A stretch of 40,825 nucleotides of DNA, from contig JAUIEW010000012.1 of the NCBI GenBank assembly GCA_030429365.1, forward strand, positions 1-40,825. Direction: 5' to 3'. The position numbers and the translations under genes were made by a program. Within the stretch, counting starts at the first letter, position 1; the number at the start of each line of letters is the position of its first letter. Below are positions 6,915 to 12,640 of this stretch, in pieces. The notes under the pieces are model-generated. The model had not been told where the DNA came from. It saw only the letters and a list, made by a program, of their open reading frames with translations, and made no database searches. The stretch is from Phycisphaerae bacterium. Its GTDB lineage: Bacteria; Planctomycetota; Phycisphaerae; UBA1845.

Positions 6915-8195
6915 ATGGCGAACAACGTGAACGATTCGACGGGTTTATCGGCCGACATCATCGCGATGGGGACGGAACTGACGACCGGCGCGAGCATTGA
7001 CACCAACAGTGCCTGGTTGTCGTCGCGGCTGGTGGAGTTGGGTGTATCAACCCGGCGGCACGTGACGATCGCGGATGACCTGCCTGCGATTGTGCGCGAG
7101 GTTCGCGAGTCGGCGCAGTCTGCGCGGATTGTGGTGATGACGGGCGGTTTGGGTCCGACGGCTGACGACATGACCCGCGAGGCGCTGGCGATGGCGGCTG
7201 ACGAGGCGCTGGTGTTTGACGAAGAATCGTTCAAGGCGATCGCGGTGTTCTATGCGTCGCTGGGGCGACAGATGCCCGAGACGAATCGGCGGCAGGCGAT
7301 GCGGCCCGCTAGCGCCGAAGTGCTGGCGAATGAGTGGGGGACGGCGCCCGGCGTGCGGATTCGCATCGGGGCGGCGGACATGTTTTCGCTGCCGGGTGTG
7401 CCGCGCGAGATGAAGGCGATGTTTGCGGCGTATGTGGCGCCGGCAGTTGCGGCGATGGCAGGGCGGGGGCATGTGTCGGTTCGGGTGCTGCGGACGTTTG
7501 GGACGGGCGAGTCGAACCTGGCTGAGCAGATCAGCGACCTGATGGAAGTCGGGCGAAACCCTGCTGTGGGGACGACCGCCAGCGAAGGCGTGATCAGTGT
7601 GCGGGTGGTCGCCAACGGTGATTCGGAGGATGCCGCCCGGCGTCTTGCTCAGAACGATATCGACGAGGTGCGCGAGCGGTTGGGCGTGCTGGTGTATGGC
7701 GAGGATGACGATTCGCTGGCTTCGGTTGTGGGCAAGCGGTTAACGGAGTTGGGCAGGACGGTGTCGACGGCTGAGTCGTGCAGTGGTGGGTTGTTGGGGG
7801 CGATGCTTACGGATGTGCCGGGGAGCAGTGCGTATTACCTAGGTGGGTTTATTCCGTATAGCTATGAACAGAAAAATGAATCGCTCGGTATCCCGATGGC
7901 GCTGATCAAAGAGCACGGCGCGGTCAGCGAGCCCTGCGCGGAAGCGATGGCCGAGCGTTGCAGAAACTTGACGAAATCGGACTACGCCCTCGCGATCACC
8001 GGAATCGCCGGACCGGGTGGCGGTACCGAAGACAAGCCCGTGGGCTTGGTTTACATCGCATTGGCCAGCAGCGACGGTGTGAAGGTTAAAGAGTGTCGGT
8101 TCAGTGAGAGAATGAACCGCGAAGTCATCCGCGACAGGTCGGCCCGCACGGCGCTGAATGTGCTTCGGCGGAAGTTAGCCAGGCAAGCAATTTGA
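6915..8195 (+). CDS. cinA: CinA-like NMN amidohydrolase
   Basis: 426 residues with the two-domain CinA layout. The N-terminal MoCF-type domain carries GTELTTGASIDTNSAWL (residues 19-35) and MTGGLGPTADDMTREAL (75-91). The LPGVPREMKAMF motif follows. The C-terminal NMN deamidase domain has TAESCSGGLLGAML with the catalytic Ser, YSYEQKNESLGIP and ITGIAGPGGGTEDKPVGLVY. The enzyme recycles pyridine-nucleotide by-products (ADP-ribose pyrophosphatase and NMN deamidase activities in the family) in the cytoplasm. The start is the ATG at 6915 with AGAAG just upstream; a longer frame from 6876 adds 13 unlikely residues. The gene is divergent from the ATP-grasp gene and converges on the nuclease gene, with only 14 bases between stops. 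Confidence 0.92.
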   Translation: MANNVNDSTGLSADIIAMGTELTTGASIDTNSAWLSSRLVELGVSTRRHVTIADDLPAIVREVRESAQSARIVVMTGGLGPTADDMTREALAMAADEALVFDEESFKAIAVFYASLGRQMPETNRRQAMRPASAEVLANEWGTAPGVRIRIGAADMFSLPGVPREMKAMFAAYVAPAVAAMAGRGHVSVRVLRTFGTGESNLAEQISDLMEVGRNPAVGTTASEGVISVRVVANGDSEDAARRLAQNDIDEVRERLGVLVYGEDDDSLASVVGKRLTELGRTVSTAESCSGGLLGAMLTDVPGSSAYYLGGFIPYSYEQKNESLGIPMALIKEHGAVSEPCAEAMAERCRNLTKSDYALAITGIAGPGGGTEDKPVGLVYIALASSDGVKVKECRFSERMNREVIRDRSARTALNVLRRKLARQAI

Positions 8196-8209
8196 GTCCT
8201 CGAACGCTC

Positions 8210-8971
8210 TTAGGGGCGACTCGAATTGAATACGGCCCTTCTTGATGTGATAAGCTCCGCCTCTAAGGCGCGGCGTTGCACAACGGTTGAGTTTTCTGGC
8301 AGTACATGCAATTCGAGAATTATATTTTCCTGGCCTTGATCCCAAAACCACCTAGCAAGATGCTTATTGTCAGAATGCTCAAGATGCTTCATGACACGCC
8401 GCTTGAGATTGCCTGACTCGCCTACGTAGAGTGTTGTGTTGTTTGTGTAGAATACATAGACGCCTGGCGCGGTCGGTAACTCATTTGGGTTAGTTCTTGC
8501 AATCGGGCCTAAGGTGATTTGGTCACAATCTAGAATTTGCGAAACGATCTCTGGTCGGAGTTTTCTAGTCTTTCGCAAATTCAATGCAGCCCAGCGGTAT
8601 TGGAGTGACGAGAATCCGGGAGCAATTTCATTTGCGTGGTTGTCGAACTCGTTTGCCAGATCAGGATCACAAAGGATGTCGTCGAGTTTGAGTTTGTACT
8701 CTTTCTCCATGTATCGGGCCGAAATCTCTGCTGCAAACCTAAAGTCATCAACCGGTCCGACTTGGGTTCGCCTCGTCGTGCGATAGTTGGAAAGTCCGCC
8801 AGCTTTTCGAAGATTCAGAAGTTTGTGGTTGATTTCTTGGACAGAGATCGCCAAGCCGTTCCTTCGGCACGACCTGATGAATTCCTCGTTGAGCTCGCGA
8901 TCCGCAACAATTCGGTCTGGCGAATATCCACGGCCGCAGTCGCGAAGCGCTTGTTCAATTGCGTGAATCAT
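8210..8971 (-). CDS. GIY-YIG endonuclease with a novel N-terminal domain (restriction-like partner)
   Basis: 253 residues. Residues 12-140 form a domain I do not recognise (RGYSPDR at 14-20, LLNLRKAGGL, RRTQVG, LDDILCDP, APGFSSLQYRWAALNLRK at 117-134). The same domain recurs in the adjacent methyltransferase. Residues 167-249 form a GIY-YIG nuclease domain: GVY at 170-172, YVG at 182-184, catalytic Arg192 (aligned with the Arg of I-TevI), Glu237 in the LEAELI helix and Asn249. All active-site positions are filled, so it should cut DNA with a metal ion. The start ATG overlaps the methyltransferase stop as ATGA, so the pair is coupled. The gene is AT-richer than its neighbours, a sign of transfer. 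The most likely role is the nuclease arm of a restriction-modification-type system; a housekeeping repair nuclease is less likely given the partner. Confidence 0.82.
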   Translation of the reverse strand: MIHAIEQALRDCGRGYSPDRIVADRELNEEFIRSCRRNGLAISVQEINHKLLNLRKAGGLSNYRTTRRTQVGPVDDFRFAAEISARYMEKEYKLKLDDILCDPDLANEFDNHANEIAPGFSSLQYRWAALNLRKTRKLRPEIVSQILDCDQITLGPIARTNPNELPTAPGVYVFYTNNTTLYVGESGNLKRRVMKHLEHSDNKHLARWFWDQGQENIILELHVLPENSTVVQRRALEAELITSRRAVFNSSRP

Positions 8972-10752
8972 GCGGCTCTTGGCGAGTTGTCAGAAGAATG
9001 CAAAGGCCTATGCAAGATCGGCTGCCGTTTTCTAATTGTCTCCGATTGATACCAGAACAACTCGGGTGATTTCGAGGCTGTCCGATTGAGCATGCTAATG
9101 GCCACAGGCGTGTCATTCGCGTATTTTTGCCAGACGGGGCTACTCAAGGCGTCGTTTGTTTGAACCCAATGAGTCACCCAGTCACGGAGATTGTTGCATA
9201 GGCCAACGAAAAGCTTTGATTCTCGGTCCCCATGAATCATGAATACGCGACCATCATTGGGAATGTTGCGTTCTTCGATCTTGGCAAGCGCGTACTTCCG
9301 AGACAATTTTATGGTTGTAGTCTTTGCGTTCAGTTGGCGTCCCCAGCGGTTTGAACGCCCTAATTCTTTTCGGGTGTGTAGACCCGCCCAGCGGTAATGG
9401 AAAGACTCGAATCCTGGGGCGAAACGCTTGGCGATTTCATCGAATTGAACGGCGTATTCAGGCGTGCAAAGTATTTCATCTAGCGATACTCCATACTTTT
9501 CACCGAGAATTCCCCACGCAATCTCGCTTGCAAATTTGCACAGCCAGAGAGTTCGCTTGTCCACTTGCGAGGTTCTCTTTGCATTCACTGGGCCCAATCG
9601 CCCAGATTTCCGAAGCTTTAGTAACTCTAGATTCCAATCTCTTGGGGCACCGCTTACACCCTGCTGTTCGCACGCATCGAGATAGGATGCATTTAGTTCA
9701 GGATCAGTAATAACCCGATCTGTTGAGTATCCACGCGCAGCTTTATTGTACGCACGAACAAGCGCAGCCAAGTGTTCACTTGGCTTTCTTCTCCCGATGC
9801 CAACAGTTGAATTCTTCTGCTTTGCGTGCCCGTTTTTCCTTGAGAATTGCTTCAAATGCCGGCGAACAATGTTTGCCTCTAGTCGCCGGCCATTGGCGGT
9901 GCTGGGGGCGCTGGACAGGGGGTCGGCTGGTCCGGTCAGTGGGTCGCCTTCCTTTGTGTTGGCCAGGCGTTTGCGGGCTTCTTTGGCGTAGTCTTTGGAT
10001 AGTTCAAAGCCCATCCATTCCCTTTTGAGTTTCTTGGCTACCATCAGCGTGCTGCCGCTTCCGGTGAAGGGGTCGAGGACCGTTTCGCCTTCGTTGGATG
10101 AGACGCGGATGATGCGGCCCAGGAGTTGCTCGGGCATTTGGCAGCCGTGGAAGCCGGCTCGCTCTTTGAACGTGCCCGCGACCCTTGGGAAGTACCAGGT
10201 GTCGTCGGACGGTTGAAATCCTTCGGGCAAATCCTGCGGGCGAAGGACCCAGGTGTCGTCGGGGAGGCGGCCTTTGGCGTTGGCCCGCTTGTCGCCGTAG
10301 ACGAGTTGCCGGGCCGAGGGCACGCGGATGTCGTCGGAATTAAACGTGAATTCCTGAGGGTCCATCGTGAAGTGAAACAAGTGCGTGTGCGAGCGCGTGA
10401 ACTTGCGTTTGCAATTCACGCCGAACGTGTAGTACCAAATCACCCAACTGCGACAGTGGAAACCGACTTCGCGCGTCGCGATCGTTTTGAGCTCTGCCGC
10501 ATAGTCGTCGCCGATCGCGAGCCAGAACGTGCCGTTTGGTTTCAACGCGCGGTGGACGCCCGCGATCCACTGTTTGCTCCAGTCGAGATAGGCTTGGTCG
10601 TCCTGCTTGTCGTTGTACTTGTCGTATTCGTAACCGATGTTGAAGGGCGGATCGGCGAAGATGAGGTCGATGCTGTCTTGTGGGAGTGCGGCGAGTCCTT
10701 TGACGCAGTCGCGGCAGGTGATGGCGTTGATGTATTTGCTGATGGACGGCAT
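8968..10752 (-). CDS. Beta-class DNA methyltransferase fused to the shared domain and an inactivated GIY-YIG domain
   Basis: 594 residues. Motif IV DPPFNIGY (34-41) precedes motif I FTGSGST (229-235), the order of beta-class amino-methyltransferases (N6-adenine or N4-cytosine, N6_N4_Mtase type). A low-complexity linker (~265-325) leads to residues 330-468, which match the N-terminal domain of the neighbouring nuclease (RGYSTDR 340-346, LLKLRKSGRL, RTSQV, LDEILCTP, APGFESFHYRWAGL). Residues ~490-582 align with the nuclease GIY-YIG domain, but catalytic Arg becomes Trp525, Glu becomes Gln569 and Asn becomes His581, so this copy should be dead. The start is the ATG at 10752 (AAAGG 6 bases upstream); a longer frame to 10812 would translate an upstream palindrome. 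The core (residues 1-285) is GC-rich like the host, while the C-terminal module is AT-richer. It is coupled to the nuclease gene. Target sequence unknown. Confidence 0.85.
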   Translation of the reverse strand: MPSISKYINAITCRDCVKGLAALPQDSIDLIFADPPFNIGYEYDKYNDKQDDQAYLDWSKQWIAGVHRALKPNGTFWLAIGDDYAAELKTIATREVGFHCRSWVIWYYTFGVNCKRKFTRSHTHLFHFTMDPQEFTFNSDDIRVPSARQLVYGDKRANAKGRLPDDTWVLRPQDLPEGFQPSDDTWYFPRVAGTFKERAGFHGCQMPEQLLGRIIRVSSNEGETVLDPFTGSGSTLMVAKKLKREWMGFELSKDYAKEARKRLANTKEGDPLTGPADPLSSAPSTANGRRLEANIVRRHLKQFSRKNGHAKQKNSTVGIGRRKPSEHLAALVRAYNKAARGYSTDRVITDPELNASYLDACEQQGVSGAPRDWNLELLKLRKSGRLGPVNAKRTSQVDKRTLWLCKFASEIAWGILGEKYGVSLDEILCTPEYAVQFDEIAKRFAPGFESFHYRWAGLHTRKELGRSNRWGRQLNAKTTTIKLSRKYALAKIEERNIPNDGRVFMIHGDRESKLFVGLCNNLRDWVTHWVQTNDALSSPVWQKYANDTPVAISMLNRTASKSPELFWYQSETIRKRQPILHRPLHSSDNSPRAA

Positions 10753-10957: not shown

Positions 10958-12640
10958 TTAGCGGCTTATGTCTACCGTGGTTACGCGGACGGCTTCTTCG
11001 AGCGTGGTCAAGCCGCGGCGGACTTTGGCGAGGGCGTCGTCGCGGAGCATGACCGCGCCGTGTTTGACGGCGTAGGCATACATCTCTTCGGTTGATGCTT
11101 TGTTCATCACCATTTCGGATAGGCCCGGATCGAACGGGACGTATTCGTAGACGCCGAGGCGGTCGTAGTAACCGCTGCGGCCACACCGTGCGCACCCGGT
11201 GCCGCGGAAGAGTTTGACGTTTTCGCGTTCGAGGGGGATGCCCATCATCTGTCGTTCGGCGCGGTTGGCGTCGAACGAGCTGTGGCAATGCTCGCAGATG
11301 CGACGAACGAGGCGTTGGGCCATCACGCCGATGATGGCGCTGGAGACGAGGTACGGTTCGCAGTCCATGTCGAGCAAACGCGTCAGCGCGCCGACGGCTG
11401 AGTTGGTGTGGAGCGTGGCGAAGACGAGGTGTCCGGTAAGCGAGGCTTCGAGCGCGAGGTGGGCGGTCTCTTCGTCGCGAATTTCGCCGACCATGATGAC
11501 GTCGGGGTCGTGTCGGACGATGCTGCGCAGGGCGGCTGCGAAGGTGACGCCGTAAGCCGAATCGACCTGCACCTGGTTGACGCCGGGAATGTGGTATTCG
11601 ACGGGGTCTTCGATGGTGATGATGTGTCGATCGACCGCGTTGATTTGCGCTAGGGCGGCGTAGAGTGTCGTGCTCTTACCGCTTCCAGTTGGCCCGGTGA
11701 TCAGGATGATGCCATGCGGGCGGCGGATGAGGCGCTCGAATGCCTGGCGCGTTTCGAGTTCCATGCCGAGGTGTTCGAGGTTGACGGCCGACCGATCCAT
11801 CGCGAGCAGACGGAGGGTGACGCGTTCGCCGTTCACGGTTGGTATGACGGCTGTTCGGATGTCGATGGTCTGCTCGAAGCTCAAGTGGGCGAAGCGTCCG
11901 TCGAGCGGTTTGCGGTGCTCGGTGATGTCGAGGTTGGCGAGCACCTTGATGCGCGAGACGAGGGCGGCAGTCGCTTCGAGTGGATAGGCCCGCGCTTCGA
12001 TCATGCGGCCGTCAATGCGGTAACGCACGCGAAGGCGATCGTCTTCCGGTTCGATGTGGATGTCGCTGGCGCGGCGGTCGACGGCTTCATCGATCATGCT
12101 GTCGAGTTGCTCGGCCATGTTCAATCCAGCGGCAGATACCGGCGATGCGGATTGCTTCGTGGGCACAGAATGGGCGATGCGGGCGCCTTTTTGGCGAGCG
12201 TGTCCGTAGGCTTCGTCCTGCACCTGAACGATTTGATACGCCGGGCTGACCACGAGTTGGGTTGGCCTGTCGAAACGGGCTGCGAGCATGTGGTGGATGC
12301 TGGAATCGCCCGGGTCGGCGACGGCTGCGACCAATCCGCCCGCGACTTCACCGAAGATCACGCAGCGATGCAAGCGCGAGTCGTTTTCGGGCAGCGCGAG
12401 AAGCCAGCCGGTCGAAGGCTTTCGGCGACTGAGGTCGAGAAAGCGGATGCCATAGTGTTCCGCGAAAATTTGCGCCACTTCCGAATCGCTGATGATGTCG
12501 CGCTGGACGAGGATGTTGACAACTGGTTGGCCGGTGAGCTCGGATTCGATCTTGATGCTCCGCAGCTGCGCCGGGTTCATCTCGTTGCGTTCGAACAAAC
12601 GGTTGAGAATCTTGCCTTGGGCGGCGATGGGAGCGCTCAT
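10958..12640 (-). CDS. Type II secretion / type IV pilus assembly ATPase (GspE/PilB family)
   Basis: 560 residues. The N-terminal MshEN-like region (residues ~10-150) is followed by the secretion ATPase core. Landmarks are Walker A GPTGSGKSTT (316-325), the Asp box ITIEDPVEY (341-349), Walker B VIMVGEIRDE (381-390), the His box TGHLVFATLHTNS (402-414) and a four-Cys zinc site (Cys449, Cys452, Cys483, Cys486) in the place usual for GspE and PilB. It powers pseudopilus or pilus assembly from the cytoplasmic face. The zinc motif and N-domain argue against PilT. It follows the FHA-SpoIIE gene by 50 bases on the same strand. A PilM-type operon lies about 18 kb away and could supply its platform. 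I cannot separate GspE from PilB on sequence alone. No good ribosome site is seen near the ATG. Confidence 0.9.
   Translation of the reverse strand: MSAPIAAQGKILNRLFERNEMNPAQLRSIKIESELTGQPVVNILVQRDIISDSEVAQIFAEHYGIRFLDLSRRKPSTGWLLALPENDSRLHRCVIFGEVAGGLVAAVADPGDSSIHHMLAARFDRPTQLVVSPAYQIVQVQDEAYGHARQKGARIAHSVPTKQSASPVSAAGLNMAEQLDSMIDEAVDRRASDIHIEPEDDRLRVRYRIDGRMIEARAYPLEATAALVSRIKVLANLDITEHRKPLDGRFAHLSFEQTIDIRTAVIPTVNGERVTLRLLAMDRSAVNLEHLGMELETRQAFERLIRRPHGIILITGPTGSGKSTTLYAALAQINAVDRHIITIEDPVEYHIPGVNQVQVDSAYGVTFAAALRSIVRHDPDVIMVGEIRDEETAHLALEASLTGHLVFATLHTNSAVGALTRLLDMDCEPYLVSSAIIGVMAQRLVRRICEHCHSSFDANRAERQMMGIPLERENVKLFRGTGCARCGRSGYYDRLGVYEYVPFDPGLSEMVMNKASTEEMYAYAVKHGAVMLRDDALAKVRRGLTTLEEAVRVTTVDISR

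Follow-up and report, generated by a model that had tools for sequence, protein, structure and literature searches.

A planctomycete DNA methyltransferase bearing an inactivated copy of the adjacent GIY-YIG nuclease: a candidate restriction-modification-like cassette

Introduction

Why should a DNA methyltransferase (MTase) carry at its end a copy of the nuclease encoded by the next gene? The question is raised by two overlapping genes in a stretch of 40,825 nucleotides from a Phycisphaerae bacterium (contig JAUIEW010000012.1), here called the window. A preliminary description of this DNA had proposed that a beta-class MTase gene and a GIY-YIG nuclease gene overlap by ATGA, and that both products carry the same domain of about 130 residues before a GIY-YIG fold. 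It had further proposed that the two proteins recognise the same site, or dimerise, through this module. We have analysed the anatomy of both proteins, their relatives in other genomes and the history of the locus.

The Methyltransferase and Nuclease Genes

Both genes are open reading frames on the minus strand and were found as described. The MTase gene (8968-10752) encodes 594 amino acids counted from its ATG, and its stop shares an ATGA (8968-8971) with the start of the nuclease gene (8210-8971, 253 amino acids). The catalytic core of the MTase (residues 1-285; 9898-10752, minus strand) matches the Pfam family N6_N4_Mtase over residues 28-260 (E 1.7e-52), and motif IV (DPPF) precedes motif I (DPFTGSGS), which is the order of beta-class amino-methyltransferases. 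The nearest folds are CcrM, M.BceJIV and RsrI, with CcrM and M.BceJIV among the best fold matches. The NCBIfam models for YhdJ and CcrM gave 155 and 111 bits, respectively, against the core, both far under the cut-off. Judged from the DPPF motif and the relationship to CcrM, RsrI and M.BceJIV, the enzyme is probably of the N6-adenine type. Tail-less relatives of the core are frequent on viral contigs (L121-L199; 253 confirmed places).

The nuclease has a predicted active GIY-YIG domain at residues 165-253 (8213-8479, minus strand), identified by Pfam (residues 170-246, E 4.4e-8), by its AlphaFold2 model and by fold matching. In the model (mean pLDDT 91.9) the GIY-YIG domain comes after a pair of matching units of four helices each. 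The GIY and YIG strands and the catalytic Arg, Glu and Asn that mark the superfamily are all present, and the whole catalytic set (Y172, Y182, R192, H196, E237, and N249) is intact in the window and has equivalents in all 11 separate nucleases with an alignable GIY-YIG part. In a fold search only the GIY-YIG part of Eco29kI and Hpy188I was matched (Z 7.3 and 4.9), and it was again this part of the nuclease that gave the matches to UvrC (Z 10.2), T4 EndoII (8.7) and PD-T4-3 (6.9). A sequence search of the nuclease against PDB chains gave no match that would extend Eco29kI- or Hpy188I-type homology beyond the GIY-YIG core.

The residue offset between the nuclease and UvrC is constant, being 153 for UvrC Y19, Y29, R39, and Y43 and 161 for E76 and N88; R39 and E76 entered this comparison as what we take to be the catalytic positions. 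Y19, Y29, Y43, and N88 were taken from PDB titles. Alignment and UvrC fold match thus agree with the earlier designation of Arg192 and Glu237 as catalytic residues. The spacings R-x3-H and E-x11-N are those of Eco29kI R104, H108, E142, and N154. No second copy of the nuclease was found in the host genome. The nuclease is predicted to cut DNA that does not carry the mark of the MTase.

The Shared Helical Module

When the two window proteins were compared by BLASTP, the C-terminus of the MTase was found to be homologous to the whole nuclease (31% identity over 208 residues, E 5e-30). This similarity is far above what chance would give at the sequence level, and the alignment spans the proposed shared domain and extends into the GIY-YIG domain. 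In the nuclease the module comprises residues 1-138 (8558-8971, minus strand), as defined by an internal repeat and the AlphaFold2 model. In the MTase it comprises residues 328-463 (9364-9771, minus strand), as defined by homology to the nuclease, a module profile and the internal repeat.

The module of about 135 residues is a duplication of a unit of about 60 residues with the pattern D-x-[IV]-x-x-DP-x-L...F...LRK, and a profile comparison of its two halves gave a probability of 96% (E 1.8e-9). Both the nuclease and the MTase copies conserve basic residues at the unit ends (R55-K56 and R133-K134) as well as R126; these could be DNA contacts. The shared part is present in about 70 other proteins among the matches listed. 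None of the family libraries searched, Pfam included, names a family for it, housekeeping or other, as the preliminary description had supposed. A fold search of the helical module gave no clear match; its lists were filled by the GIY-YIG domain and are not evidence of a new fold. The repeat module is a candidate for a new family.

The Methyltransferase Tail Is an Inactivated Nuclease

Beyond the module, residues 494-580 of the MTase (9013-9273, minus strand) form an inactivated GIY-YIG domain, as seen from an alignment of 80 copies and from the model, in which strands and helices follow a GIY-YIG-like order. This end of the MTase has no match in Pfam. In the window, Gln569 replaces the catalytic Glu, Trp525 the Arg and His581 the Asn. 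A second nuclease-type module had been reported on the MTase; the homologous module is there, but it is not a working nuclease.

This holds for the whole family. The metal-binding catalytic Glu is found in 11 of 11 separate nucleases and in 0 of 67 MTase tails, where the position is taken by Gln (41 tails), Arg (11) or Lys (8). The Gly, Tyr, Arg (60/68) and Asn (67/68) positions are mostly kept, while the equivalent of H196 is kept in just 6 of 67. By its sequence the tail is a catalytically dead copy of the nuclease, and an active second nuclease was ruled out with the catalytic Glu missing in 67 of 67.

Neutral decay of the tail was ruled out as well. Close pairs of tailed MTases without a nuclease gave dN/dS values of 0.01-0.30 for the dead domain, which is the signature of a domain maintained by purifying selection. 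In a tree of all copies one branch with 98% SH-aLRT support puts the nucleases and the tails on opposite sides. Because this single branch parts them, the tree is best read as one old duplication and inactivation that explains all tails; repeated independent fusion of nucleases onto MTases was ruled out on the same ground.

Distribution of Tailed Methyltransferases, Nucleases and a Third Gene

A GTDB-wide scan was made with the alignment of tailed MTases and the best 80 loci were taken; nearly all of these were named as planctomycetes. Among the matches listed, module-bearing MTases are found in about 70 loci. An adjacent separate nuclease is found in at least about 11 other planctomycete loci among these matches, so that the pair does recur in other genomes, as the preliminary description required. 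These loci are L037 (identical to L066 and G436), L041, L046, L052, L054, L055, L065, L067 (GIY-YIG part missing), L078, L090, and the viral contig L120 (shortened nuclease). More than 50 tailed MTases among the matches listed have no nuclease beside them. The module is therefore not tied to the nuclease, and since most tailed MTases have no nuclease, the tail must by this reasoning also act on its own. A nuclease was found beside 0 of 24 plain MTases and 11 of 68 tailed ones among the matches listed (Fisher p 0.06, suggestive only).

Relics of the nuclease, that is, module fragments without the GIY-YIG domain, were seen at L007:1336-1680 (genome G044, which belongs to the same order and has a plain MTase elsewhere), L120:7665-7919 (the viral contig) and L067:6750-7292 (a lake MAG). 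Searches for the nuclease in phages and plasmids returned matches to the GIY-YIG domain only, with no module, and a scan of viral contigs with the nuclease gave no match.

Besides that of the window, a true separate nuclease was found in just 2 of 392 sampled genomes of the phylum, G436 and G415. The G415 nuclease (L038:8467-9420) retains its catalytic residues, has an N-terminus that is hydrophobic and signal-like, and lies alone in housekeeping surroundings, far from the MTase of that genome. A lone nuclease away from any MTase would suit a methylation-linked repair or housekeeping function, in which a UvrC/Cho-like incision enzyme is guided to MTase sites and has no role against foreign DNA. 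UvrC being the closest of the solved folds to the GIY-YIG domain, and solo MTases with and without tails being widespread in planctomycetes, also speak for such a function. The rarity of the nuclease speaks against it, and a patchy distribution, horizontal grafting and decay fit restriction-modification systems better; of the readings considered here we give this one the least credence.

Directly downstream of the nuclease a third open reading frame of about 115 amino acids is conserved in seven loci (L052:8548-8952, L054:8576-8950, L065:8451-8804, L078:8501-8884, L046:8568-8921, L055:4574-4927, and L090:3596-4189). It also follows nuclease-free tailed MTases at L016:2235-2618 and L062:4055-4525. 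Most copies end in LPSCFCDPxDL. The protein has no Pfam match above chance and no PDB sequence match, and in PADLOC and PHROGs it gave weak single-member matches only. Among the 392 genomes its sole match, in G128, likewise adjoins a tailed MTase; the frame was found solely beside the tailed-MTase/nuclease system, and was not found in the genome of the window. Like the repeat module it is a candidate for a new family. No recurrent helicase-type neighbour was found in the loci with the pair.

The Tail and the Nuclease Were Probably Grafted Together

In three genomes of the same genus (G001, G002, and G004) the locus between cinA and gspE holds a tail-less MTase, with no module and no nuclease. 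These orthologues are 94, 91, and 91% identical to the window MTase over about residues 1-292 and end shortly past the linker SAP-[SN]-TANGRRL; the MTase family as such does not require the tail. DNA similarity to G001 ends at 8185, in the last cinA codons, and restarts at 9884, in MTase codon 290. The segment in between (8186-9883), containing the MTase tail and the nuclease, has a GC of 0.49. Its GC3 is 0.50-0.52, whereas the MTase core has 0.77 and the genes on either side 0.75-0.77. The break in GC3 between core and tail is +0.27 in the window, while 67 other tailed loci have a mean of +0.03 and at most +0.22. Because of the gap in similarity to the tail-less relatives and the GC3 break, the tail and the nuclease most likely came jointly from outside and were joined at the linker to the MTase core, which is the resident part of the locus. 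Ancestry throughout the genus with three losses was considered less likely than a gain at the window locus, given the break in composition.

The second-largest break between core and tail is that of L015 (G374; GC3 0.64 and 0.42), which adjoins a plain MTase in the tree and is possibly a second recent graft. Beside the system lies a GspE/PilB-type ATPase gene (10958-12640, minus strand); it has 20 matches in the host genome (E<=0.001), of which many are long paralogues.

Tailed and plain MTases interleave in the MTase tree across the phylum, and a single clade of module-bearing MTases was ruled out (AU p 2e-6). The distances between nucleases track those between tails (r 0.53, Mantel p 6e-4; ten loci only), and given the tail there is no further correlation with the MTase core (partial r -0.02, ten loci). 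Across 93 tailed and plain members, the region with which the MTase reads its target has a conservation of 0.81, equal to that of the catalytic motifs. Because the two are equally conserved, the cassette may be passed between MTases that share a specificity and leave that specificity unchanged.

Such mobility could also be that of a homing-type cassette. A selfish nuclease would cut, close to the linker, those MTase alleles that have no tail, and tail and nuclease would be copied in by recombination, the tail restoring a working MTase end and destroying the cut site; there would be no methylation-dependent restriction. Homing enzymes do occur among GIY-YIG nucleases, the cassette has replaced the tail-less end at a conserved linker of the MTase, and alleles with an empty site exist. 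The interleaving of tailed and plain MTases and the nuclease relics in G044 and on viral contig L120 would fit as well. We consider a homing origin very unlikely, however, as the split between tail and nuclease is old and single, the dead domain has been under long-term purifying selection, and many loci include the conserved third gene. We also know of no homing enzyme that leaves an inactivated paralogue of itself fused to the host gene.

Discussion

The two genes probably form a restriction-modification-like cassette whose pseudonuclease tail would bring both enzymes to the same DNA. The nuclease, a module followed by an active GIY-YIG domain, would cut DNA without the mark of the beta-class MTase, and the MTase bears, after the conserved linker, the homologous module and the inactivated GIY-YIG domain. 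Most likely the tail would bind, but not cut, the DNA on which the nuclease acts, or would associate with that enzyme, and methylation and cleavage would thereby compete for the same sites. It could hold the MTase at the sites of the nuclease, shield these sites until they are methylated, or pair with the nuclease. Tail and nuclease would travel jointly, and resident tail-less MTases of a single planctomycete family could receive them, as most likely happened at the window locus; the target of such a system would presumably include foreign DNA.

The retention of tails where there is no nuclease favours a function of the tail in cis, of which DNA binding would be the simplest. Such binding is compatible with the missing catalytic Glu, since in Eco29kI the E142A change abolished cutting and nicking and left DNA binding (Kd 45 compared to 16 nM; PMC1952068). 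An E142Q variant of Eco29kI is also among the solved structures, with a PDB title that reads 'DNA binding and cleavage'. Against binding without cutting stands the H196 equivalent, lost in most tails, at a position whose His matters for DNA binding in Eco29kI (PMC1952068). The window tail, having lost the Arg and the Asn too, may bind DNA poorly.

The last observation would be easier to explain if the chief role of the tail were to pair with the live nuclease by way of the module or the GIY-YIG surface, giving one MTase-nuclease complex. In a variant of this the tail would keep the nuclease only half-active until a site without methylation is encountered, and the dead copy would act as an inhibitor, or a licence, built into the MTase. 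Tail and nuclease are paralogues encoded by overlapping genes, and their distances covary. Pairing of live and dead paralogous subunits is moreover a common principle. Yet the tail is under selection in many MTases that have no adjacent nuclease and no known partner, and we regard a complex as the main function of the tail as unlikely. The earlier interpretation is partly supported, by the recurrence of the pair and by a module that matches no named family; its proposal of same-site recognition or dimerisation through that module stays an inference.

Returning to the coupled restriction-modification-like system, we tentatively suggest that it could be a portable restriction upgrade, a possibility we hold with less than even confidence. 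A dead tail and its live twin would be grafted onto an orphan MTase of fixed specificity and turn it into a restriction-modification system, with the tail balancing modification and restriction. The tail would then be a natural mutant of the cutter that binds but does not cut, occupying its sites or pairing with it. Two testable questions follow: how orphan MTases gain and lose restriction partners, for which same-genus relatives with the empty locus exist, and how modification can stay ahead of cutting. A recognition motif from a Kuenenia methylome (PMC5854607) was considered and dropped; the strain may not carry this MTase, and MAGs labelled Kuenenia may be mislabelled.

Comparison With Known Systems

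In the open-access literature we found no paper describing this architecture, that is, an MTase that carries a dead paralogue of its partner nuclease, in line with the view that the arrangement was not previously known. A survey from 2006 reported a GIY-YIG domain fused to a COG4123 MTase in lactobacilli (PMC1564403). A GIY-YIG domain is joined to an MTase-fold domain there too, but the MTase is of another family, the GIY-YIG domain is Slx1-like, and no separate paralogous nuclease was described. The Bacillus DnmA-YeeB-YeeC system resembles the window in that an adenine MTase gene is clustered with a gene for a T5orf172/GIY-YIG nuclease, but a helicase lies in between and the MTase has no dead nuclease copy (PMC9973331). 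In the window the MTase and nuclease genes overlap directly, and their neighbours are cinA-like and gspE-like.

The beta-class adenine MTases CcrM, YhdJ, RsrI, and M.BceJIV, often orphans, share the catalytic core, and the tail-less orthologues of the window MTase are likewise solo genes. Unlike the window MTase they lack both a tail derived from a nuclease and a nuclease partner. Type IIC/IIG enzymes and the artificial RM.Eco29kI fusion (PMC3039593) combine nuclease-type and MTase domains in one polypeptide. Their fused nuclease is active, whereas the fused GIY-YIG domain of the window lacks the catalytic Glu and the live copy is separate.

Among the nearest known systems are also the type II restriction-modification systems with GIY-YIG nucleases (Eco29kI/Cfr42I and Hpy188I), in which, as in the window, the nuclease gene adjoins a DNA MTase gene. 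A separate MTase and an adjacent nuclease with intact catalytic residues were found in the window and in about 11 loci among the matches listed, and with Eco29kI the window nuclease shares both the catalytic set and its spacing. It differs from these enzymes by its N-terminal two-repeat module, and the MTase beside it is a beta-class amino-methyltransferase that carries an inactivated copy of the nuclease.
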